DNA from: a virus
Direction: 5' to 3' (one strand)
Length of the DNA stretch: 24,568 nt
IMG/VR virus record: IMGVR_UViG_3300048033_000561
Location: 1-24,568 of that record
Shown here: positions 4,728 through 21,787 of the stretch, piece by piece
Layout: each line of letters starts with the position of its first letter
Numbering within the stretch: the stretch's first letter is position 1
The notes under the pieces: model-generated
Seen by the model: only the letters and a program-made list of their open reading frames with translations
Told to the model about the DNA's origin: nothing
The model's database searches: none
Position numbers and translations under genes: made by a program

Positions 4728-5095
4728 TATAGATTCCTTAACACATTTATAATACGAAGATCTAATGGTATTTCAACGTACTCATCTTCTTTTAAATAAT
4801 TGAGGTATACCAAAAACGTTTTTAAAGCTGAAAGAGATGTTGGATCTGTTTTAAAGAATACCATTCTCTTCGCATGTTGTATACCAAATACATTGAATAA
4901 AACTATAAGATGATTTAGTATTAGCCTTTCTTGTAGTTCGCCGTTACTTTCATAACGTCTCAATAATCGTTTTAAATATTTGAAGCGGTTTAGGTCTTCA
5001 TAGAACTCTTCCACTTCTGTGCATTGTTTATTGCTATAAAACTTAGAAGCATATAGCATGAAATTATCATTAGTCAGTTCATCAAAGAGTTGCAT
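4727..5095 (-). CDS. Conserved T4-like phage protein, unknown function
   Basis: 122 aa, predicted mostly helical, starting with QLFDELTNDNFMLYASKFY and containing EEFYEDLNRFKYLKRLLRRY and ERLILNHLIVLFNVFG. From memory this pattern recurs in T4-like marine phages as a small conserved late gene. It is the first gene downstream of a clear TATAAATA late promoter, so it should be expressed late with head, tail or lysis genes. No catalytic motif is visible. Confidence 0.82.
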   Translation of the reverse strand: MQLFDELTNDNFMLYASKFYSNKQCTEVEEFYEDLNRFKYLKRLLRRYESNGELQERLILNHLIVLFNVFGIQHAKRMVFFKTDPTSLSALKTFLVYLNYLKEDEYVEIPLDLRIINVLRNL

Positions 5096-5129
5096 TAAAT
5101 AGCCCTACATTAAATTAATAGTATAGGAC

Positions 5130-5137
5130 TATTTATA
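5130..5137 (-). promoter_or_regulatory. T4-type late promoter TATAAATA
   Basis: Exact TATAAATA on the minus strand in a 49-base intergenic gap, about 35 bases upstream of the 122-aa gene start. In T4 this octamer is recognised by the gp55 late sigma factor with gp33 and the gp45 clamp; none of these genes is in the window. Confidence 0.85.
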
Positions 5138-5144
5138 CTTTATA

Positions 5145-5429
5145 TTATCGTTTAACTACGTACTTTAGTACATCAATTAACGATGCTTTTTTCTCACGTT
5201 TATCAAGTTCAATATCATGCTCACGACCAAGGGCTTCAAGCTCATCTTTAGTCATAGATTCCAGATTAAGTTTTGGTTCTGGTTTAGGAGCAACAGTTTT
5301 CTTTTCGAAACCATTCCACTCATTGATTTGCGCTTCAGACATTTTTCGTCGTTTTAGCATTTCGCCGTGTGCAGTAACGATACCCCGAGGAGTAGCGATA
5401 CCATCTTTTAACCATCCTGCTTTTTTCAT
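5145..5429 (-). CDS. Small protein with C-terminal HeH/SAP-like helical domain
   Basis: 94 aa. The N-terminal 40 residues (AGWLKDGIATPRGIVTAHGE...) have no recognised fold. After a proline/lysine linker, the last 35 residues (LESMTKDELEALGREHDIELDKREKK then ASLIDVLKYV) have the helix-extended loop-helix pattern of HeH/LEM/SAP or Rho-N-type domains, which often bind DNA or RNA. It overlaps the stop of the 312-aa scaffold-like gene by ATGA. It is the last gene of the head-cargo operon. Confidence 0.74.
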   Translation of the reverse strand: MKKAGWLKDGIATPRGIVTAHGEMLKRRKMSEAQINEWNGFEKKTVAPKPEPKLNLESMTKDELEALGREHDIELDKREKKASLIDVLKYVVKR

Positions 5430-6364
5430 TTTCGAATATCCTTCATACGTTTAACTGGTGACTTATCACCATCGGCTTTATCACCAGGGCGTTTAGCCGC
5501 CGGTTTAGTAGCATCAGCTGCTTTAGGCTTATCAGCATCTGGACGATCAACGATAGTCTTTTTATGCTTAGCAATAAAGTCACCTTGCTCTTTATCTTGT
5601 TGAGCTGCATCACCCTCTGGGTTTGCTGCTTCAGCAAGAGAATTCATTTCAGTTTCAAATGCATCAAGTTGTGACTCATCTAGAGAATCGATAAATGCAT
5701 CTACTTGATCATCATTCATTTCTGAGATCTCATCCCAATTGAAAGATTCTTTTTTCACTGATTCTTCCTTTCCATCATCTTTTTTATTCTTTACAACGAT
5801 TTTTTCTTTTTTCTTTTCAGGAGCCGGCTCATCTTTTTCAGGAGCAGGTTCTCTTTCAGGAACAGGTGTAGGATCCGGAGCATCGGCAGCAGCAGCACGA
5901 TCATCTTGTGATGGAGCATTTGTTGCAGCAGGATCTGCTTCTTTTTTCTCAGGCTGTTTCTTTTTAGCCTTTGCAGCCTTTGGATCTTCAACATCTGTTT
6001 TATCATCATCTGTTTCGATTTCAACAGCTTCTTTGAATTTATCCCATGGCGTTTTACGTAGAGATACTTTGCTTTTTCCTTTAGCTTTCGCTTTGTCAGC
6101 AGCAAGAGCTTTACGTACTTGATCAGGAGTAAGGCCACGTTTCTTTGCCTCATCGATCATTGCCTGCTCTTCTTCAGTAAACTCTTCTTTTTTCATAGAC
6201 TTTTTAATAGCCTTACGACGCTTATGCAGATACTCATCAGATGAATCCACATCACCATCATTATCGATATCAGCATCGCCCTGACCTACAGGATCAAGCT
6301 TATCTTCTTTTTTATTTCGTTCTTGAAGCATCTTAATGTATGCTTCTGCGATTGGATTGTCCAT
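5426..6364 (-). CDS. Highly charged head core or scaffold-like protein with a Ca-binding-type loop
   Basis: 312 aa, low complexity, alternating Lys/Glu/Asp and Ala/Pro-rich stretches, like T4 prohead-core proteins in composition. Residues 32-43 form a textbook dockerin/EF-hand-type calcium loop (D32, D34, D36, G37, V39, D40, D43). Candidate prohead-protease sites of the (L/I)xE type are IAE|A at residues 5-7 and LAE|A near residue 241. An acidic helix pair is seen in ISEMNDDQVDAFIDSL and DESQLDAFETEM. The start has a good AGGAG. Placement at the end of the capsid-targeted operon supports a head-internal or core role. I infer this; I cannot name a T4 orthologue. The repetitive codons create long spurious frames on both strands here. 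Confidence 0.78.
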   Translation of the reverse strand: MDNPIAEAYIKMLQERNKKEDKLDPVGQGDADIDNDGDVDSSDEYLHKRRKAIKKSMKKEEFTEEEQAMIDEAKKRGLTPDQVRKALAADKAKAKGKSKVSLRKTPWDKFKEAVEIETDDDKTDVEDPKAAKAKKKQPEKKEADPAATNAPSQDDRAAAADAPDPTPVPEREPAPEKDEPAPEKKKEKIVVKNKKDDGKEESVKKESFNWDEISEMNDDQVDAFIDSLDESQLDAFETEMNSLAEAANPEGDAAQQDKEQGDFIAKHKKTIVDRPDADKPKAADATKPAAKRPGDKADGDKSPVKRMKDIRK

Positions 6365-6423
6365 CCTATTCTCCTTGTAAATTGTTTTTCAACTAGCAGA
6401 AGCAATTACTGCTAACATTCTTG

Positions 6424-6705
6424 TTACATCCAAACTTGGGCTGCAATTGCACTCCCGATAGCAACAATAGCTACCCAGAATAATTTATTTATAGTATGTA
6501 CAGTACGAGCATTATCATCGCACTTCTTTTCAATAGTGTCTAACTTAGCTGAGAACTTATTCATTCGTTCCCATGACCTATCGCGATACTCATTATAAGC
6601 ATCCATCTTTTCTTCGAAGCGCGCTAGTGATACTAATACTTCACTCATCTTATCCATTTTTTCTTCGATTCGATCTAGGCGATTTTTCCAGTCTACATCT
6701 GACAT
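6424..6705 (-). CDS. Coiled-coil protein with C-terminal membrane anchor (XhlA/holin-associated-like)
   Basis: 93 aa. Residues 5-68 are a continuous heptad-type helix (NRLDRIEEKMDKMSEVLVSL, then FEEKMDAYNEY...). Residues about 73-92 are a hydrophobic membrane segment (LFWVAIVAIGSAIAAQVW). This tail-anchored coiled-coil layout matches phage haemolysin XhlA-type proteins that accompany holins, and similar small proteins occur in many phages. A role in lysis timing or membrane association is possible but unproven. It is one base from the preceding gene and 60 bases before the scaffold-like gene. No other holin candidate is obvious in this window. Confidence 0.75.
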   Translation of the reverse strand: MSDVDWKNRLDRIEEKMDKMSEVLVSLARFEEKMDAYNEYRDRSWERMNKFSAKLDTIEKKCDDNARTVHTINKLFWVAIVAIGSAIAAQVWM

Positions 6706-6706
6706 A

Positions 6707-7048
6707 TTAACACTTCCATCTCTTCAGTGACATAGCTTTCCGTGTAGGTCTGCCTTTATCATCTTTCATAGGGCCTTTCATTCCGCTCATACGAGCACAG
6801 AATGACTTACGTCTACCTGCAGCTTTACTGCCCGGCTTGACTTTACCAGTGACAGCAGTTTTAAGGTTTCCGCCAGTTTTTCTATTAACTGCAGCGACAC
6901 CTTTTGCCGTCATCCCAGCCCCCTTTTCGGTGCTTCGATAATGTCCTTTTGAATCAGCGCCTCGCTCGTTAACGCTATTCTCACACTGTTGGCAACAAGC
7001 GTCTGTTCCACAGTTAGGATGTTCTAGAAATAATTTAAAACTTTTCAT
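6707..7048 (-). CDS. DUF6321-like Cys-rich basic protein with capsid-targeting-like N-terminus
   Basis: 113 aa from the ATG at 7048. An upstream in-frame ATG at 7078 exists, but GGAGG sits seven bases before 7048 and inside the preceding gene's last codons, so 7048 is preferred. The N-terminus MKSFKLFLEH resembles the capsid-targeting sequences in this operon. It is followed by a cysteine cluster (C13, C18, C19, C22 in CGTDACCQQC) that could bind a metal. The rest (STEKGAGMTAKGVAAVNRKT, LKTAVTGKVKPGSKAAGRRKSFCARMSGM, ending RWKC) matches what I remember as the DUF6321 family of phage proteins. Function unknown; the strong positive charge suggests nucleic-acid binding inside the capsid. Confidence 0.8.
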   Translation of the reverse strand: MKSFKLFLEHPNCGTDACCQQCENSVNERGADSKGHYRSTEKGAGMTAKGVAAVNRKTGGNLKTAVTGKVKPGSKAAGRRKSFCARMSGMKGPMKDDKGRPTRKAMSLKRWKC

Positions 7049-7049
7049 A

Positions 7050-7496
7050 TTAACCTCCAAACTCGTGACCGGCAACACGCTTCATTTGCCGATTAAATTC
7101 TGCTTGATCTGGCTTTGACTTATAAAGCTTAATAGAAATCTCAGATCGATCTTTCCCTTTGATACGCCAATTATAACCCTTTTCTTTATGCTCAGGGTCT
7201 GTTGTCTTTATAACACGACGTTTATATCCGGCTTCCCATGATTCTGGTTTACCGGTACCTTCTTTAATTTCTGGTTTTTCGTGACCATATCCCATTTTTT
7301 TCATACGTAAATGGTCAGCTTCTTTTTCAGCTTTATAACCTTTACCAGTTTTAGGATCATACATCATATGTGGAGTAAATGCTTTCTTCTCACGCATTGC
7401 ATGAAAATCAGCTTTGCGCTGTTCTTCTTTACCAGCGTTTTTAGACCATCTACCACGTGCACGGTGATACATCTTTTGTAATTCAGTCATCCTCAT
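7050..7496 (-). CDS. Basic protein, unknown function
   Basis: 148 aa, rich in K, E, H and M, with the segment MMYDPKTGKGYKAEKEADHL that I recall from other marine phage proteins. The C-terminal part (EISIKLYKSKPDQAEFNRQM) may form a small alpha/beta unit. The start at 7496 overlaps the polyprotein stop as ATGA; a second ATG at 7490 is also possible but has its GAGG too close. It is translated with the cargo genes on both sides, but has no capsid-targeting-like N-terminus of its own. Confidence 0.72.
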   Translation of the reverse strand: MRMTELQKMYHRARGRWSKNAGKEEQRKADFHAMREKKAFTPHMMYDPKTGKGYKAEKEADHLRMKKMGYGHEKPEIKEGTGKPESWEAGYKRRVIKTTDPEHKEKGYNWRIKGKDRSEISIKLYKSKPDQAEFNRQMKRVAGHEFGG

Positions 7497-8881
7497 GATC
7501 GCACTTTAGCAGCAAGATCTTTGTCTGCTTTGCCCCATGTTCCAGATGATTTAGTAACAAATGAATTAACCCGAGCGAATCCCCATTGCTGTGGAGTTGT
7601 ACCAGGCCGATGACCAGTTTTCCATGCAGCAACACCACGATTATAAACTTGTCTTAGAATTCCAAGGGGCATACCAGATTTTTCAGCTTTTGCTTTTAAA
7701 CCTTTAGTTGCATCTTCGTCTAATGTTTCGTTGTATTCGCTAAATGATTTCATTTCTTCACCGTACATTTGTTGGTATTTTTTAGTATGCTTAGATGGTT
7801 TGGTTTTTGCATCTTTATCGCCAGGTGCTGGTTTATATGCATTAGGATCATCATCGTCCATTTTTGCTTGTTTCTTAAACTGTGCATCTCGTTTAGCTTT
7901 AGTAGATTTAGCAAGACCCTTATGATAATTAGCTGGCTGAGAACCTTTACGATCGCCGATATCAGGATCTTCAGAAGCTTCTTTTGGTACACAATTTGGA
8001 ACTTGTTTACCATTCTTGGTTTTCATTCCAACTTGTTTATGGGTATCCCAACATGCTTCATCAAGTTTTTCGATGTCAGTTAACCACTTACGCATTTTCT
8101 TACCGTCAGCCATTTCGATCAGCACATAGTTAGATCCCAGCATAGAAACCGTTCCGACTTCATCTGATTCCTTAATTGCAACGAGATCTCCTAGTTCAAA
8201 TAATTGTCCTTGAACATAGGCTTCTCGTTCTTCTGACACTGTTTGCAATTGTATGTGCTGACGGTAATCATGGGATTCTTTAAGTCCCATGGCGGTACGC
8301 AAATCATTAAATAATTGCTTACCATCTTTAAAGTTTTTAGGTAGACCTTTAGTGAATAGACTGAAATCATTTGCTTGTGCAGCAGCTCTCATCTTAGAAG
8401 CTGACATTCCAGATACACCTTCTGCATCAGGATCACGCTCACCAGCAGAGATTACATTAACTCCACCTTCAAAGTTATAGAAACCATGACGGCCTTTTTT
8501 AGCATTGTACCTACCAATCAATGCTTCGAACTCATTAACACGATCTGATCCAACAACCATATTGACACGGTTATAACCTTGATCGTATATCTTTACAAGA
8601 ATATCAAATACATTTTTGACAGATTTATCTAATTGAATTGATCGCGCATGACGTGGGAACATCTTGCGCATATACTTAACTTTATTATTATAGTCTAATG
8701 GATTCTTTTTTGCATCGTTAGACTGAGAAGCGAATACCATATATTTAGATCCGCGTGCAACCTTAGCTACAGCGTCTAACAGCTTCTCATGACCTACTGT
8801 AGGAGGATTAAATCTTCCGAAAGTAAAGGTAATTTCTTTTGTGGCTTCAGTGACATACTCACTAAATGACTTGAACGACAT
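7493..8881 (-). CDS. Capsid-targeted polyprotein: nucleotidyltransferase + SH3/KOW-like + DUF5824-like
   Basis: 462 aa with several modules. Residues 1-12 (MSFKSFSEYVTE|A) look like a capsid-targeting sequence. Residues 16-200 are a cytidylyltransferase/NMNAT-like domain with the nucleotide-binding motif FGRFNPPTVGH (H31 of TVGH) and a C-terminal SASKMRAAA motif like the ISxTxxR of that superfamily. Residues about 229-270 resemble a small SH3/KOW barrel. Then come KLDE|ACWDTHKQVGMK, a basic linker, a second internal MKSFSEYNETLDE|DA (377-391), and a C-terminal DUF5824-like segment (VYNRGVAAWKTGHRPGTTPQ...). The LDE|A and LDE|D sites fit the (L/I)xE specificity of T4 gp21 prohead protease. Domain assignment is confident for the nucleotidyltransferase and moderate for the rest. 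Substrate unknown (NMN, CTP-alcohol or other). Confidence 0.85.
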   Translation of the reverse strand: MSFKSFSEYVTEATKEITFTFGRFNPPTVGHEKLLDAVAKVARGSKYMVFASQSNDAKKNPLDYNNKVKYMRKMFPRHARSIQLDKSVKNVFDILVKIYDQGYNRVNMVVGSDRVNEFEALIGRYNAKKGRHGFYNFEGGVNVISAGERDPDAEGVSGMSASKMRAAAQANDFSLFTKGLPKNFKDGKQLFNDLRTAMGLKESHDYRQHIQLQTVSEEREAYVQGQLFELGDLVAIKESDEVGTVSMLGSNYVLIEMADGKKMRKWLTDIEKLDEACWDTHKQVGMKTKNGKQVPNCVPKEASEDPDIGDRKGSQPANYHKGLAKSTKAKRDAQFKKQAKMDDDDPNAYKPAPGDKDAKTKPSKHTKKYQQMYGEEMKSFSEYNETLDEDATKGLKAKAEKSGMPLGILRQVYNRGVAAWKTGHRPGTTPQQWGFARVNSFVTKSSGTWGKADKDLAAKVRS

Positions 8882-14150: not shown

Positions 14151-14837
14151 TTACTCCTGTGTGAAATCTAACAATTTTGGATAGATCTGGCCGATTGCTG
14201 TTGCAATCTCTTTAGCCAGAACCATATGCTCTAGTTGTGTACCATTAGAAGATCTAAGTTCACAATAATGAATCCATGATCTAATAGTACCGTTAACATA
14301 TAAACGAGAAGGTGTATTACCTTCAGGTAAAACAGCCCTTGCTTGTTCTTTAGCAATGCCGTTATCAATTGCCCACTCATAGGCTTGCATAGCAGTGTGC
14401 CAAATATTACGTTGATGTTGTTCCCATTGTACATGAAGGGAAGTATCATCTGTAATTACACTATTCTGTCTATTCTTTAAATCCTGTAGACGTGCTTTAC
14501 GAATTACAACAGAGTTACTAAGATCGCGTATGTCAGCATACCGCTGAGAAAACTCTTGGAAGCTGAAGCTTCTATGACGTAATAGTTGCCTTGCAATGTC
14601 TCGGGTTGTGTTAACTTCGATTGTTGCACTTGCCATTTCGAATGGTGACCAGTGTTTATGTTCGATGAGATAGTCAAGTAACTTTGGAGTTGTCTTGGTG
14701 TTAGCTTGATTTTTCGGGTTTGAGACACGGGCGCAATAAGCGATGAGGTCCTGGATGTTATCCAATCCGTTGTGGTCACGTTCACCTGCATGAATCCTAT
14801 GTGTGAGTTGAGTATGTGCGACTAATTTAGCTTGCAT
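14151..14837 (-). CDS. thyX: Flavin-dependent thymidylate synthase ThyX
   Basis: 228 aa. Makes dTMP from dUMP using methylene-tetrahydrofolate, FAD and NADPH. The signature RHRxxSxNExSxRY is present as RHRSFSFQEFSQRY (residues 87-100); the usual Asn is Gln94. KHWSPFEMAS (61-70) is the conserved HxSPFE segment. A C-terminal RSWIHYCELRSSNGTQLEH segment carries the typical substrate-binding arginine region. It would use dUMP produced by the phage dCMP deaminase. ThyX in place of the T4 ThyA-type td gene is common in marine phages. Confidence 0.95.
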   Translation of the reverse strand: MQAKLVAHTQLTHRIHAGERDHNGLDNIQDLIAYCARVSNPKNQANTKTTPKLLDYLIEHKHWSPFEMASATIEVNTTRDIARQLLRHRSFSFQEFSQRYADIRDLSNSVVIRKARLQDLKNRQNSVITDDTSLHVQWEQHQRNIWHTAMQAYEWAIDNGIAKEQARAVLPEGNTPSRLYVNGTIRSWIHYCELRSSNGTQLEHMVLAKEIATAIGQIYPKLLDFTQE

Positions 14838-16408: not shown

Positions 16409-16709
16409 CATCATTTCCTATCTTATAATTACCACTGTCAAAAGCATCTTCTAAAATGTTTTGCAATACTTTACCTATATAGTCTTGAAAGGCAGGATTC
16501 TCGGCAAGATCTTCATCACCTTCAATTAGCGTCCACATAAAGTTTAGCCTTGCAATACCATCTTCATCATCATTGATTTCTTCAATCTTAGCGCTTACTT
16601 TACCATATTGATACTTAGTACCAGCCCAATCGCCGGTAGTAAGCTCAACAGTATAAAAGTCGTCATCAGCACGTTCAACGAATTTATAATCATTTGTGGT
16701 TACATTATA
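16359..16709 (-). CDS. Unknown acidic protein overlapping uvsX and helicase genes
   Basis: 116 aa if started at GTG 16709, which has GGAG seven bases upstream and overlaps the uvsX stop by five bases. A longer frame from 16760 would sit inside uvsX without a Shine-Dalgarno. The protein begins MYNVTTNDYKFVERADDDFYTVELTTGDWAG-like strands and ends in a very acidic tail. Its 3' end overlaps the helicase start by about 50 bases. I recall similar small proteins beside uvsX in marine T4-like phages. In T4 this slot is gp40, but no resemblance to gp40 (a membrane-associated head-assembly protein) is visible. Confidence 0.72.
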   Translation of the reverse strand, partial: YNVTTNDYKFVERADDDFYTVELTTGDWAGTKYQYGKVSAKIEEINDDEDGIARLNFMWTLIEGDEDLAENPAFQDYIGKVLQNILEDAFDSGNYKIGNDDDSKRTDNDSAEPINQ

Positions 16710-17778
16710 CACTGGTTGTCTCCGATTGTACATCGCTAAATACATCAACATCTTCACCAAGCATTGATTTTAATCCAATGGTATAATGAGACTTAATGTA
16801 TTCTTTGAGATTAGTTTCTGCGAAGATAGGTTCCCAGAACTCTTTAGTCAGTGTTTCTTTCTCACGGCATTTAGGATCTTCAAGGACACCAGTTTCTTGA
16901 TTAACTCTACAATACCATCCATTAGAAGGTTTAGCAACAAAGTTACCATGCATTGCAATATCAAGTAAACCACTGTAACGTTCAATACCACCATCCCATG
17001 TTACAGATACCGGAATCTTAGATTTCTCTTTAACAAAACGTGATTTCTCAACATTGATAATAAAGTTATAACCTTTAATCTCTGTACCAGTCTTTTGTTG
17101 TTGACGACCAAGAATCCAGATGTTATCAGCTGAATAGTAAATACCTGTACCACCACCAACGATATCCTTTGGAAACAAACCAATCTCTTTGTAAGTATGA
17201 TTGATAGCAAGTAAAGGGATATTCTTCATTGTAAGATATGGCGTAACCATACGGAACAAACCTTTGAGTGCTTTTGCACGAGACATATCAGCAACTGATT
17301 TCTCATTAATAGCATCTTCTAATTCTTTCTTAGAAGCAAGGTTACCAATAGAATCGATTACGATAATTACACGATCATCTTTCTCAATAGCTTCAAGTTG
17401 AGATACTAGATCAAACTTAAGCTTTTCAACATCAGTGATAGGTGTATGCAAGATACGTGATGTATCAATGCCAAATGATTCGAAGTATGTTTGAGGTGAA
17501 CCAAACTCTGAATCATAAAATAACATAATAGCATCTTTGTGCTTGTTCATATATGCTGCTGCCATAAGCAAAGCAAATGAAGTCTTAAAGTGCTTTGATG
17601 GACCAGCAAGGACCGTTAGCCCAGAGCCTAGACCACCATCAGGATCGCCTGATAGAGCCACATTAATCATTGGGACTGGCGTACTTGCAAAGTCCTGTTG
17701 TGAGAAGATCTTCGAGTTAGCAAGGATGTCTGTACCCTTGATTTTCGAATTCTTCTTTAGTCTATCCATTACAGACAT
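16705..17778 (-). CDS. uvsX: UvsX, RecA-like recombinase
   Basis: 357 aa, T4 UvsX family. Strand-exchange protein for recombination-dependent replication and repair. Walker A is the unusual GPSKHFKTS (59-67) typical of UvsX, and Walker B is VIIVIDSIGNLAS (137-149). Also present are LFYDSEFGSPQTYFESFGID and the ILGRQQQKTGTEIKGYNF segment. The start has AGGAG seven bases upstream. An early-type promoter lies just upstream, at the end of the 341-aa gene. It begins the uvsX-(small)-helicase-thyX unit. Confidence 0.97.
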   Translation of the reverse strand: MSVMDRLKKNSKIKGTDILANSKIFSQQDFASTPVPMINVALSGDPDGGLGSGLTVLAGPSKHFKTSFALLMAAAYMNKHKDAIMLFYDSEFGSPQTYFESFGIDTSRILHTPITDVEKLKFDLVSQLEAIEKDDRVIIVIDSIGNLASKKELEDAINEKSVADMSRAKALKGLFRMVTPYLTMKNIPLLAINHTYKEIGLFPKDIVGGGTGIYYSADNIWILGRQQQKTGTEIKGYNFIINVEKSRFVKEKSKIPVSVTWDGGIERYSGLLDIAMHGNFVAKPSNGWYCRVNQETGVLEDPKCREKETLTKEFWEPIFAETNLKEYIKSHYTIGLKSMLGEDVDVFSDVQSETTSV

Positions 17779-17807: not shown

Positions 17808-17836
17808 ATTATACCATAAATTCATCGAGTTGTACA
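17808..17836 (-). promoter_or_regulatory. Early-type sigma70 promoter for uvsX
   Basis: Minus strand: -35 TGTACA (17836-17831), 17-base spacer, -10 TATAAT (17813-17808), TGG extension. It overlaps the last codons of the upstream 341-aa gene. Confidence 0.88.
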
Positions 17837-18834
17837 CCCTTTTCTGGCGGTGTACCTTGTCTTTGTTCCCATCCTGATTCCCAGCCTGAAGCATTCATCA
17901 GGTCTGCAGATACGTGATCAAATGTACCATTACCACGAGGTACATAGTTTTGACCAAAGCGAACAAAGTCACACATCACATCTTCAAGGTCTTTTGCTTT
18001 TCCACCGGTACGTTCTACCAGCAGGTTCATAAAGTCGTCTGGTTTCCACCCTGTTGAGAGCCTTTTCATACAGCGGACAGCATTGTTTCCTAAATAGGTA
18101 TGGCTATCTACATTAACATATTGAGGGAAGTAATCAGAGCAATCCATAGAAAAGGCAGCGTACACGAAATTAAATTTTCGGTGGCCTACTTCTTTGTTAT
18201 AGCCATTAAGATAATCAACAATATCTTTATGACCACGGGTTTCCTTTTGTAACCATTCTGTGAAATTATTTATCAAAGTTGGTAATTCACGCGTCATAAA
18301 ATCTACATTAGATGTACCTTTTTTTGGCGCAGGTGGTTGGTTGCCAATGGATGTGAACATTGACTTCCCTTGCTTTTTATTGAATACAAGATCGTTTGCC
18401 ATCTCATCAATAGTTTCAAATCTACCCCAGAATTGTATTACATTATTACGATATCCATGATCATTTTCGAATGACGCACCTGATCCCATAATCCTATGAC
18501 ATAAGAATACATATAACCAGGTTTTTAAATTCCATTGAATAGAATCATTTGATTTGTTAAGTGCACGGCGTTCTTCATTCTGCCATCGCCATTTTGGAGT
18601 CTTAGATCCAAACCATAAGTCTTGAAGTACATTAGAGAAACCAGCAGCATTACGAGTATAGCAATCATATATGTCAATAGTCTGCATTAAAGGATCATTG
18701 ACAGCTTTATCAGCTTCATCACATTTATAATCTAGATTTCCCCAGTTTACATTCTCTTGTAACCATTTAGCACGAGGATAATAGTATTCCGAGAATACAT
18801 CTAAAGCTTCTTCATTCAGCCACTGTTTTTTCAT
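17809..18834 (-). CDS. Possible amino-acid:DNA transferase / aGPT-Pplase-type enzyme in the base-modification cassette
   Basis: 341 aa, mostly helical, with strongly patterned segments likely to be catalytic: YTRNAAGFSNVLQDLWFGSK (59-78), RIMGSGASFENDHGYRN (114-130), IGNQPPAP (163-170), DCSDYFPQYVNVDSHTYLGN (231-250) and GGKAKDLEDVMCDFVRFGQNY (277-297). The last two recall HhH-glycosylase-related proteins called aGPT-pyrophosphorylases or amino-acid:DNA transferases in thymidine-hypermodifying phages, but I cannot confirm membership from memory. The overlap of 23 bases with a PLP-enzyme-like gene and nearness of dCMP hydroxymethylase support a DNA-modification role. Alternative: a nucleotide-metabolism enzyme of an unrelated helical family. 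Function is inference only. Confidence 0.62.
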   Translation of the reverse strand: MKKQWLNEEALDVFSEYYYPRAKWLQENVNWGNLDYKCDEADKAVNDPLMQTIDIYDCYTRNAAGFSNVLQDLWFGSKTPKWRWQNEERRALNKSNDSIQWNLKTWLYVFLCHRIMGSGASFENDHGYRNNVIQFWGRFETIDEMANDLVFNKKQGKSMFTSIGNQPPAPKKGTSNVDFMTRELPTLINNFTEWLQKETRGHKDIVDYLNGYNKEVGHRKFNFVYAAFSMDCSDYFPQYVNVDSHTYLGNNAVRCMKRLSTGWKPDDFMNLLVERTGGKAKDLEDVMCDFVRFGQNYVPRGNGTFDHVSADLMNASGWESGWEQRQGTPPEKGVQLDEFMV

Positions 18835-19717
18835 TCTTCACCCAATCTCTATATGAATCAATTCGATCGTATATAGTTTCATCTTCTAATACAGGTTCCG
18901 CACCTACATTCCAGAACAAGATATCTTTATCACTGTTCTTAGGTATATACTTCCACACCTTACCGTCATATGTATCGATATTAGGGAATGGCGGAAGGTT
19001 TTCTTTTTTCTCTGATGCAGTAAATGCAAGAGGTTCTGATATCGGTTCTGCTACACCAAGTTCACCAGCTTTCATATTGCGTGATACACAAACAGAAGTA
19101 AACTTGGCATTAGGCCAAGCTATTTGAAGTGCCCGTGTGAGCACGCCCGTGGACGTGGCCGTATAGACTTCATCTGGTTCTTCTATATTTTCGTATGCTA
19201 CCTTTACAATACCAGCGGTTACTAATTCATGTTTTAATCCTAACGGAACAAAGAATGCATTAGGATGAGCATCAGCCCACTTCTTCGCAATCAAGTTTAA
19301 GTTAGGCATTGCTGCAATACGATGGAATTCATATTCACATCCACGTTCTATACAGCAGGCCTGATGCATTGATATACGTTTAGAAGAAGGCATGAATAGT
19401 CTTACCTTCTTACCATGTCGCTTTGCTACATCAAGCAGAGAAACACCAGCAAGACCAGTACGAGGTTGAACATAAACAATGGTATCAATATGATCAGGGA
19501 GCGAAGAGATGAGACAATCACCCCCGCGGACTTTGCTACCAACCAAGTCATCATCCCTGACAACCCTAATACCATCATGAACGGTAATACGAGGTACAGG
19601 ATTAGGATCTTCCCAATCATAAGCAAGGTAAAGAAATTCATCTCTAGCATCTTCAGCTGTATATAAAGGTCCGACATCTTTATTCACTCCATCAATTATA
19701 TGTTTATTATGCGCCAA
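18812..19717 (-). CDS. PLP-dependent fold-type-II (tryptophan synthase beta-like) enzyme homologue
   Basis: 301 aa from a TTG start (19717) with GGGGAG nine bases upstream. VRDDDLVGSKVRGG (53-66) resembles the Schiff-base lysine region of ACC-deaminase, threonine dehydratase and cysteine synthase proteins (candidate K62). VYVQPRTGLAGVSLLDVAKRHGKKVRLFMP corresponds to the next strand-helix, but the usual SxGNxG Asn that contacts PLP is absent (PRTGLAG). YTATSTGVLTRAL resembles the phosphate-binding loop. So fold is likely, chemistry uncertain. It overlaps the SGNH-like gene by 11 bases and the 341-aa gene by 23. In thymidine-hypermodifying phages PLP enzymes process amino acids attached to bases, and a parallel role is plausible here. 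Confidence 0.72.
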   Translation of the reverse strand: MAHNKHIIDGVNKDVGPLYTAEDARDEFLYLAYDWEDPNPVPRITVHDGIRVVRDDDLVGSKVRGGDCLISSLPDHIDTIVYVQPRTGLAGVSLLDVAKRHGKKVRLFMPSSKRISMHQACCIERGCEYEFHRIAAMPNLNLIAKKWADAHPNAFFVPLGLKHELVTAGIVKVAYENIEEPDEVYTATSTGVLTRALQIAWPNAKFTSVCVSRNMKAGELGVAEPISEPLAFTASEKKENLPPFPNIDTYDGKVWKYIPKNSDKDILFWNVGAEPVLEDETIYDRIDSYRDWVKNEKTVAE

Positions 19718-20681
19718 GTCCGGTTACTCCCCAATCGTTTCTTCTATAAAATGGCGGAGCAATATGGAAAGAAGATCCATGCTCCATATAGGTTTTAGCA
19801 TATGTTTCAGGATTCATAGTATACCATTCTTCTGGTGGCATAACAACAGATCCAGCTTGTTTGTGCAATTCATCAATAAACCTATTTGTCAAATCATGAC
19901 GTTCTTGCCATGATCCATAGAATGGTTCTTTCTTGTAGAACCCAGATTTAGGTATACGTCTTTCCTCGAACTCAACTGGAACTGGAGCAGCAAAGAATAC
20001 TTTACAATCATACATGGTCTCCAAAGCTTTACCTTGAGTTACATACTCCCGAATAAAGTTTTTAAGAACAAAATCATTGTGTCGTAATATATGATGCCGA
20101 ATATCAATAGAACCCAAACATAAAGTGATTGTACCAAACGGAGTAACTCCTCTGAGGAGAGACCGAATGCCTGCTTTAAGCGCCCCGTGTAAAGTTTTGC
20201 CATCGTTACGAAACACCATATCATTACGGTGGCTAAAAGAGCTTGTATGACTGTCACCAATTGTCATTCCTTTCATTTTAAGATTTTCTTGTTTCATTGA
20301 AGAAACAGAGGACAATCTTGAACTTAGTCGGTCACACCATTCTTCAGTTATGCCTTCGTATGTGGTATTAGCACCAATACGTTTCTTAAGCATTTCGCCA
20401 TAATTCGGCATATCATGATCAAGCGAAATAATATCATTACAAGAAGCAATGAGATTAATACGGTCAAAAACCTCTTTAGTTGCTCCACCAAAAAGATTTA
20501 ATGTTCCACCGAAGTTTGCACCGTGATCAATATAAACCCTATCATATGATTTTACCTTAGGTGTGCACTTATGGTCAATACAAGATCCTAATTGATCTCG
20601 CCATATTTGTGTCCAGCCATGTACATGAGATTTCTCATTAACAGGTATATTAGATATTGGATTTGTAATCACAGAATTCAT
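19707..20681 (-). CDS. SGNH/GDSL-like hydrolase or acyltransferase
   Basis: 324 aa from the ATG at 20681 (GGAG six bases upstream); a longer frame from 20702 is less likely. GMTIGDSHTSSF (near residue 140-150) matches SGNH block I, CLGSIDIRHH resembles the block III strand, and SSFHIAPPF near the C-terminus carries a possible catalytic His. The N-terminal 100 residues (YIDHGANFGGTLNLFGG..., SLDHDMPNYGEML) are of unknown fold. SGNH proteins remove or transfer acyl groups; in this neighbourhood it may act on a modified base or a precursor. It overlaps the dCMP deaminase by 32 bases. Confidence 0.68.
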   Translation of the reverse strand: MNSVITNPISNIPVNEKSHVHGWTQIWRDQLGSCIDHKCTPKVKSYDRVYIDHGANFGGTLNLFGGATKEVFDRINLIASCNDIISLDHDMPNYGEMLKKRIGANTTYEGITEEWCDRLSSRLSSVSSMKQENLKMKGMTIGDSHTSSFSHRNDMVFRNDGKTLHGALKAGIRSLLRGVTPFGTITLCLGSIDIRHHILRHNDFVLKNFIREYVTQGKALETMYDCKVFFAAPVPVEFEERRIPKSGFYKKEPFYGSWQERHDLTNRFIDELHKQAGSVVMPPEEWYTMNPETYAKTYMEHGSSFHIAPPFYRRNDWGVTGLGA

Positions 20682-21129
20682 ATTCAACTCCAGCTTCTTC
20701 AAATATTGATTTGCTTAATGCCCAAGAATCTTGCCAATTAGCAGGTATCTCTTGAGAGGGCATTACTATTTTTTTGATTCCTACTTGGACGATGCCTTTA
20801 GCACAATCAGAACAGACAGGAAGACCAAACACAAATAAAGTTGATCCATGTAAAGATACTCCGTTATATGTAGCATTGTAGATGACATTCATCTCAGCAT
20901 GTACTACTAGTTTATATTTAGTGGGTCGATCATTATATCGATCCTCGGAGTCATTAACTCCACGTGGGAAACCATTGTAGCCTTGAGATAAGATTTGGCC
21001 TTTATCTCCAACTGCAACAGATCCTATTTTACTTGAAGGATCTTTAGACCAACTTGCTACTTGTTCAGCAAGTTCTAAGTATCTATTGTTCCATTTATTT
21101 GACAAGATCGAAATGCCTTTCATAGACAT
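20650..21129 (-). CDS. cd: dCMP deaminase
   Basis: 159 aa. Zinc-dependent conversion of dCMP to dUMP, feeding ThyX. The zinc site is clear: HAE (H77, E79) and PVCSDCAKGI (C106, C109). SKDPSSKIGSVAV and QGYNGFPRGVND are typical of phage and bacterial dCMP deaminases. The N-terminus overlaps the hydroxymethylase gene by 35 bases. The chosen ATG (21129) has AGGTAA upstream; a start six bases later or at a TTG near 21103 cannot be excluded. Deamination competes with hydroxymethylation for dCMP, so both enzymes together set the ratio of dT to hydroxymethyl-dC. Confidence 0.93.
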   Translation of the reverse strand: MSMKGISILSNKWNNRYLELAEQVASWSKDPSSKIGSVAVGDKGQILSQGYNGFPRGVNDSEDRYNDRPTKYKLVVHAEMNVIYNATYNGVSLHGSTLFVFGLPVCSDCAKGIVQVGIKKIVMPSQEIPANWQDSWALSKSIFEEAGVEYEFCDYKSNI

Positions 21130-21787
21130 GTAAGTTCATTACCTGCCATGTTAGCATACCTTTTTCAATAGGTGCTTTTTCATGCACATAAGCTAGTGCA
21201 TTGTAATCATCTACAACTTTATCCATAAGATGTTGGGCCCAAGCATAATCGTTCTTATAACCGAATACTACATCATTAGAACGCATTTGCGATACCATAT
21301 GTAATACATTATCACGAATATAAAATGTTTGAGCATTCGTACAAATGAAATCAGACTTACCATTCTCATCGAATTCAGTCCAGATAGATGGACGATTGTA
21401 TACCATCTGAGCACGACGAGAATCAGGGTTTTGCCATAGTTCTTCTAGTGCACGCTCATATTGAGAATAATACTTTTCTGAAAATACTAAATGACCATAG
21501 TTAGAATTAATATTGCCATCATCATCTGATGCATATTGCCATGCTACAGGTGGTTGTCTACCTGGACCATAAATATCAAGGATATTAGTAGAACGTGACT
21601 CATACCATTTAATCTCTGCATCGATGTATTCTTGTACTGGTGTGCCGAAGATAGCAGGTTCGCTTGCAATAAAGTTTGCACCAATCATTTCGATAGTCTT
21701 TTGACCAGTCTTATCGATAGTAAATGCTTCATCAGCAAGTTCACCGATGAAGAACTCTCGAATATCTTTTACACTATACATTAGCAT
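21095..21787 (-). CDS. 42: dCMP hydroxymethylase (T4 gp42-like)
   Basis: 230 aa (T4 gp42 is 246), thymidylate-synthase superfamily. Similarity to T4 gp42 is evident throughout: DKTGQKTIEMIGANF, INSNYG, QNPDSRRAQMVYNRPS, SDFICTNAQ with the nucleophile C149, MRSNDVVFGYKNDYAW, and LHVYERHF. D180 in KNDYAW replaces the Asn that selects dUMP in thymidylate synthases and matches the T4 residue that selects dCMP. It makes hydroxymethyl-dCMP, so phage DNA probably carries 5-hydroxymethylcytosine or a derivative. GGAG seven bases before the ATG; TAATG overlap with the preceding gene. Confidence 0.94.
   Translation of the reverse strand: MLMYSVKDIREFFIGELADEAFTIDKTGQKTIEMIGANFIASEPAIFGTPVQEYIDAEIKWYESRSTNILDIYGPGRQPPVAWQYASDDDGNINSNYGHLVFSEKYYSQYERALEELWQNPDSRRAQMVYNRPSIWTEFDENGKSDFICTNAQTFYIRDNVLHMVSQMRSNDVVFGYKNDYAWAQHLMDKVVDDYNALAYVHEKAPIEKGMLTWQVMNLHVYERHFDLVK

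Follow-up and report, generated by a model that had tools for sequence, protein, structure and literature searches.

The main question raised by this locus is the function of T, a protein of 341 amino acids encoded in a virus record of 24,568 bases (the window, to which all coordinates below refer). According to a preliminary description of the same DNA, T might be a helical enzyme related to the amino-acid:DNA transferases and acting on hydroxymethylcytosine (hmC). Overall, the results are probably best explained by T belonging to a three-part cytosine-hypermodification cassette of T4-type phages, in which it would serve as a base-flipping transferase on hmC, next to a PLP-dependent enzyme (P) and an SGNH-fold protein (S). 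The genes discussed here are collected in Table 1.

Table 1. Genes of the window considered in this analysis, with the matches or features used to name them
Feature	Coordinates	Strand	Remarks
ThyX-type thymidylate synthase	14151..14837		
uvsX recombinase, far boundary of the b-gt slot	16705..17778	minus	phrog_97 E 3.6e-90, PF21134 E 8e-14
T (341-aa protein)	17809..18834	minus	uninterrupted 341-codon ORF
P, PLP-dependent enzyme	18812..19717	minus	phrog_7093 family, PLP lysine K62 in LVGSKVRG
S, SGNH-fold protein	19707..20681	minus	phrog_13881 E 2.8e-100
dCMP deaminase	20650..21129	minus	PF00383 E 8e-18, phrog_174 E 4.8e-43
dCMP hydroxymethylase, T4 gp42 type	21095..21787	minus	predicted to make the hmC precursor; Asp at the T4 D179 position

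The ORF of T is a real gene. Across 17809-18834 the plus strand is full of stop codons, and the ORF lies on the minus strand. Purifying selection on it is strong, with a dN of 0.017 versus a dS of 0.33 for one pair of sequences and 0.079 versus 1.16 for a second. Hundreds of relatives exist in uncultured viruses, and together these results confirm the 341-aa protein given in the preliminary description. Among the IMG/VR stretches matched by pattern, 131 of 133 encode a relative with high identity, which is far above chance, and the profile scan of IMG/VR finds relatives in 171 of 266 matches. A second T subfamily, having about 31% identity to the window protein, is represented in 303 of 414 IMG/VR matches; the relatives analysed below are the best 80 of each IMG/VR scan. 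As for annotated phages, tblastn against 50,697 phage records reports no match, and none of the annotated phages there encodes T. The genome scan detects T on two contigs (L216 and L217, with 96% and 69% identity) of a single Rhodobacteraceae bin, Water_Bin34, which are probably binned phage contigs.

Regarding conservation, the four motifs that had been singled out as invariant-looking (GSGASFENDHGYRN, IGNQPPAP, DCSDYFP, and LEDVMCDF) are all found in T. Much of them, though not every position, is indeed invariant in 20 relatives with 61-84% identity. When 37 members with identity down to 27% are aligned, the invariant core consists of H113 and R114, G117 and S118, G127, Y128, and N130, followed by T161, S162, G164, Q166, and P168, and finally by E284, D285, V286, C288, D289, and R292.

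Sequence profiles assign T to no known family. A Pfam search returns no model for the window protein up to E 1, nor for two of its relatives up to E 10. No PHROGs or NCBIfam model matches T either, the few hits with E < 0.1 being scattered over the members, and a PDB sequence search with T gives only two hits, both at chance level. Thus, the finding that would count against the original proposal, namely that the profile of a characterised but unrelated family recognises T, does not occur in Pfam, PHROGs, or NCBIfam. The profiles of the proposed relatives do not match T either: the amino-acid:DNA transferase (ADDT) profile PF18724, the HMUDK_hel / aGPT-Pplase profile PF18723, and the Pfam glycosylase models each detect 0 of the 37 members at E 0.1, so the suggested search against Pfam transferase and HhH-glycosylase families comes out negative. 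Profile-profile comparison by hhalign, run with 20, 19, and 37 T sequences, is non-significant for ADDT (E 0.065, 0.069, and 0.11) as well as for HMUDK_hel (0.29 and 0.5), and the resemblance to aGPT-Pplase is therefore not upheld at the level of sequence profiles. Column-shuffle controls score as high in 6 of 59 shuffles for ADDT and in 23 of 59 for HMUDK_hel. This profile-profile test is a weak one, as HMUDK_hel against ADDT, which are presumed relatives of each other, yields only P 0.0013. A collinearity of motifs between T and HMUDK_hel, seen by eye, was dropped as evidence, since neither the profile-profile nor the shuffle tests bore it out. For T we thus claim a predicted fold, and do not claim membership of PF18724 or PF18723.

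The fold comes from an AlphaFold model built with 20 sequences, which is almost wholly helical, in line with the helical protein predicted earlier. Its confidence is moderate (pLDDT 73.6, pTM 0.74), with the conserved loop 119-129 and residues 295-305 falling under pLDDT 50. According to VIA-align, the closest structure is the AGOG 8-oxoguanine glycosylase (Z 9.1), followed closely by PUGT (Z 9.0, rmsd 4.0, 201 aligned residues), the 5-PmdU glycinyltransferase gp46 of phage PaMx11, a PF18724 ADDT protein with a solved structure (8z2n). HhH-type DNA glycosylases, homologues of glycosylases, and PUGT fill ranks 1-13 throughout, and at the first unrelated row Z falls to 4.8. Foldseek against the PDB reports no hit for T below E 1, PUGT being found by VIA-align only. 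In BFVD, the three best matches have E-values of 2e-10 to 3e-12 and 27-30% identity, one of them being named amino acid:DNA transferase domain-containing; the ADDT-named A0A6J5L8T5 scores E 5.2e-11 with TMq 0.77 and 28% identity. Next among the named matches, with E from 0.01 to 0.13, come a second ADDT-named protein (E 1.2e-2), an aGPT-Pplase, and proteins with the 5-hmdU kinase helical domain. All BFVD hits with E < 1 and a functional name come from DNA hypermodification families. Structure prediction, which the preliminary description had called for, therefore points to the HhH glycosylase / PUGT fold on VIA-align, with Foldseek against the PDB non-significant, and the possible likeness to amino-acid:DNA transferases appears to hold at fold level (PUGT and the ADDT-named BFVD matches) and at that level only.

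The same ranking, in which AGOG glycosylases and PUGT share the top places within one superfold, also raises the possibility that T is a true HhH DNA glycosylase excising bases, e.g., from host or competing phage DNA, with the cassette marking the phage's own hmC for protection. We regard this as very unlikely: no Pfam glycosylase model recognises any of the 37 members, as noted above, and the obligate linkage to a PLP enzyme from a modification family, an SGNH protein, and an hmC synthase would be atypical of a repair glycosylase. Other roles of T in infection or repair were set aside on account of the linkage to the hmC synthase.

Of the two partner genes, P matches phrog_7093 with E 9.3e-30 and PF00291 with E 5.4e-4, the latter below the curated cut-off. 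Its PLP lysine column is invariant in the P alignment and is the same column as in the phrog_7093 family. The gp52 protein of phage M6 ('threonine dehydratase') matches phrog_7093 at E 2.2e-159, and by both profile and PLP lysine P is an enzyme of this gp52 type. In the M6 thymidine cassette gp52 comes after the ADDT gene gp51, and we take both of them to function in thymidine hypermodification, where such PLP enzymes reportedly decarboxylate the attached amino acid. PMC9476957 includes a PLP-dependent enzyme in the M6 thymidine cassette. A relative of P is also present in gp1 of the Erythrobacter phage R6L (L082:6927-9356), as part of an apparent ParB-like/DNA methyltransferase fusion; judged by eye, this is an independent link of the PLP family to DNA modification.

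As for S, its ORF is listed from a TTG at 20702, and homologues start at the ATG at 20681. The nucleophile motif GDSH, whose Ser is S151 in the 331-aa numbering, is invariant in a 42-sequence alignment, and S also carries GxIDxRH and SxH motifs. The AF2 model has a pLDDT of 91.3 and a pTM of 0.89 and resembles SGNH esterases with Z 10.8-12.8 over the top 50 rows and a Foldseek E of 9e-5; S is thus predicted to combine an SGNH/GDSL fold with the GDSx nucleophile motif. Proteins with SGNH folds are mostly esterases. In the Aeromonas phage SW69-9 (L084:6007-8394) an S domain forms part of a 795-aa protein, whose C-terminal region weakly matches PF18723 HMUDK_hel, with an E of 0.0037 that stays below the cut-off; this fusion may be the sign of an hmC modification not yet reported for T4-like phages of Aeromonas. 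Homologues of S in phages AS-gz (L225:1783-5047) and IME13 (L223:276-4053) have a UDP-galactopyranose mutase gene and an ORF without any match in their vicinity, which hints that Tulanevirus has a different modification, perhaps with a sugar.

The three genes are closely linked. P starts with a TTG that overlaps the S gene by 11 nt, and the ATG of T overlaps the 3' end of the P gene by 23 nt; the two overlaps suggest that S, P, and T are translationally coupled. Across loci, the genes were detected with HMMs, and loci count as testable if the anchor is flanked by 3 kb or more on each side. T, P, and S are found on a single strand within 4.5 kb in 34/34 loci fetched with T and 39/39 fetched with P, two sets that share contigs and are not independent, as well as in 37 of the 40 testable loci of the second T subfamily. 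Four gene orders are seen (S>P>T, T>P>S, T>S>P, and P>T>S), and such reshuffling of genes that nevertheless stay together argues for a shared pathway. Among the three exceptions in the second subfamily, L259 has S about 4.8 kb away, and L285 and L286 contain T and S with no P within reach; given the latter two, P is not strictly required. In both of these loci (4889-8536) the ORF after S looks cytidylyltransferase-like by eye and the ORF before T epimerase-like, so that they perhaps represent a variant donor pathway.

The position of the cassette is constant as well. In all 63 complete loci with distinct T sequences it is located between the dCMP hydroxymethylase gene and uvsX; for 8 of the 40 testable second-subfamily loci, no hydroxymethylase is present inside the fetched stretch. 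On the minus strand of the window the order from 5' to 3' is hydroxymethylase, dCMP deaminase, S, P, T, and uvsX. T4 has the order 42, b-gt, segA, uvsX, with b-gt and segA filling the slot of the cassette. According to PMC6024577, b-gt of T4 is situated between gene 42 and uvsX, and RB69 keeps its module for arabinosyl-hmC in the same plastic region. The cassette thus occupies the place of the modification genes in a T4-type hmC module.

The hydroxymethylase itself indicates the substrate. The window enzyme matches the T4 enzyme (1b49) with E 5.1e-65 versus E 8e-8 for thymidylate synthase. As described in PMC8670742, cytosine specificity is set by an Asp replacing Asn in the hydroxymethylase. 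This Asp is found in 203 of 207 hydroxymethylase/thymidylate synthase hits; among the 4 misses of the regular expression, L287 and the Microbacterium phage Koji (L219) carry it by eye, and L213 and L215 are non-cassette phages. Judging by the T4 match and the specificity Asp, the phage DNA likely contains hmC, and the earlier suggestion of hydroxymethylcytosine as the substrate gains support from this neighbour. Besides the dCMP hydroxymethylase, the window encodes a ThyX-type thymidylate synthase, so that the syntheses of dTMP and hm-dCMP are separate.

Since the dCMP deaminase, the hydroxymethylase, and the nearby PF18909 protein and ThyX all point to nucleotide metabolism, the cassette might instead act on free hm-dCMP or hm-dCTP before replication rather than on DNA. 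The predicted fold of T, however, is that of DNA glycosylases and a DNA-base transferase, and T4 keeps its DNA glucosyltransferase in this slot, which makes this alternative very unlikely. That the cassette modifies hmC in DNA is, in our judgement, highly probable.

Genes of the known pathways were searched for in 14 long cassette records of 53-168 kb, none of which is known to be complete and which are possibly fragments. The 5-hmdU kinase PF18748, the companion expected in a PF18724 context, is detected in 0 of these 14 possibly fragmentary records, with the M6 and Goe26 controls positive. The earlier statement that no such kinase is visible in the window and that the pathway would therefore differ agrees with this count. 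A search of the window itself also detects no 5-hmdU kinase, with the genomes serving as built-in controls of that search negative too. PF18723 and PF18724 are likewise found in 0/14 records (M6 is positive for both, and Goe26 for PF18723). The T4 glucosyltransferases PF09198 and PF11440 exceed the curated cut-off in 0/14, with T4 positive for both; sub-threshold PF09198 matches appear in 2/14 records (E about 9e-5), so that glycosyltransferases of other kinds may be present. The gp54 protein of M6 (L209:8281-8844) is annotated as 'terminase small subunit' but matches PF18748 with E 1.1e-19, so the annotation looks wrong. In Koji (L219:1364-5220) an HMUDK_hel-type gene is adjacent to a gene annotated as ThyX. 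The product of the latter resembles thymidylate synthase and carries an Asp (WGYRADW) close to the specificity position, and this phage may have a kinase-type hmC pathway.

Based on these data, the following pathway can be proposed. By homology, the phage dCMP hydroxymethylase would produce hm-dCMP, which would be polymerised into DNA as hmC. According to its fold and context, T would swap the oxygen substituent on the C5 methylene of hmC for an amino acid or a small amine after flipping the base out of the helix, and we lean towards T being the transferase. S would stand in for the missing 5-hmdU kinase, most simply by O-acylating hmC and thereby creating a leaving group. This is the weakest step of the scheme; it is suggested because an S domain is fused to an HMUDK_hel-like region, as the kinase is in Goe26, and the assignment of hmC activation to S is tentative. 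P would either trim the appended amino acid (decarboxylation being one option) or produce the donor, and the chances that it tailors the appended group are about even. The product would take the place of T4's glucose and protect the DNA from host nucleases. The kinase-free route as a whole, in which S acylates hmC in DNA, T puts an amino acid or amine in the place of the ester, and P tailors the result, would give uncultured T4-type phages a class of hypermodified cytosine instead of glucosylation; it is slightly more doubtful than the activation of hmC by S.

The fusion in SW69-9 and its parallel to the kinase-HMUDK_hel protein of Goe26 are open to another reading, in which T is a DNA- or base-recognition subunit like the 5-hmdU kinase helical domain, S is catalytic, T and S together esterify or acylate hmC, and P makes the donor. 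The persistence of T and S as a pair in loci lacking P fits it as well. T, however, has a dense set of invariant polar residues of its own, and BFVD ranks ADDT-named proteins over HMUDK_hel ones for it. Hence, we consider a recognition subunit unlikely, and T as the transferase remains the reading preferred here.

In T4-type phages the known modifications of hmC are sugars, and it is in thymidine pathways that hypermodifications derived from amino acids are known. The present cassette seems to join an hmC synthase with thymidine-type transferase-fold and PLP enzymes, and to have an SGNH protein in place of the expected kinase. Both thymidine hypermodification with amino acids and hmC glycosylation are thus known kinds; an hmC cassette made up of transferase-fold, PLP, and SGNH genes has no prior description in the titles and abstracts of the open-licence papers searched. 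If the proposal is true, it predicts a new DNA base together with a new activation chemistry for DNA tailoring, and it names three concrete genes (T, P, and S) that can be tested on readily made hmC DNA.

Among known systems, PaMx11 gp46 and M6 gp51 (PF18724) are close to T, which appears to share their HhH-glycosylase-like helical fold. By eye, gp46 and T both have E-x-x-x-C-x-[FW/Y] near the C-terminus (E243-C247 and E284-C288, respectively), and a PLP-enzyme gene adjoins M6 gp51 as it does T. PF18724 proteins, however, occur in a thymidine/hmdU context with a 5-hmdU kinase, whereas T has an hmC context without this kinase and no profile match. The overall predicted fold of T is also that of HhH DNA glycosylases such as AGOG; T differs from them by having no glycosylase profile match and by its base-modification context. 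As for whole cassettes, the thymidine cassette of M6 (gp51-gp55) also combines a transferase-like helical protein, a phrog_7093 PLP enzyme, and a hydroxymethylase of the thymidylate synthase family. In addition, M6 has a kinase, a photolyase-like/radical SAM gene, and HMUDK_hel, while the window cassette has an SGNH protein and a dCMP hydroxymethylase. T4, with gp42 and beta-glucosyltransferase, and RB69, with arabinosyl-hmC, are alike in having an hmC synthase and, in T4, a modification gene between 42 and uvsX. In contrast, the window slot holds three non-glycosyltransferase genes, PF09198 and PF11440 being below the cut-off or absent in the 14 records. The S domain has homologues with 27-32% identity in the Aeromonas T4-like phages 44RR, 31, and 25 (phrog_13881/phrog_17781). 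SW69-9 differs by the fusion to an HMUDK_hel-like region and by the lack of a PLP enzyme in the annotation of the stretch fetched, and AS-gz and IME13 differ by having the S homologue beside a UDP-galactopyranose mutase gene.
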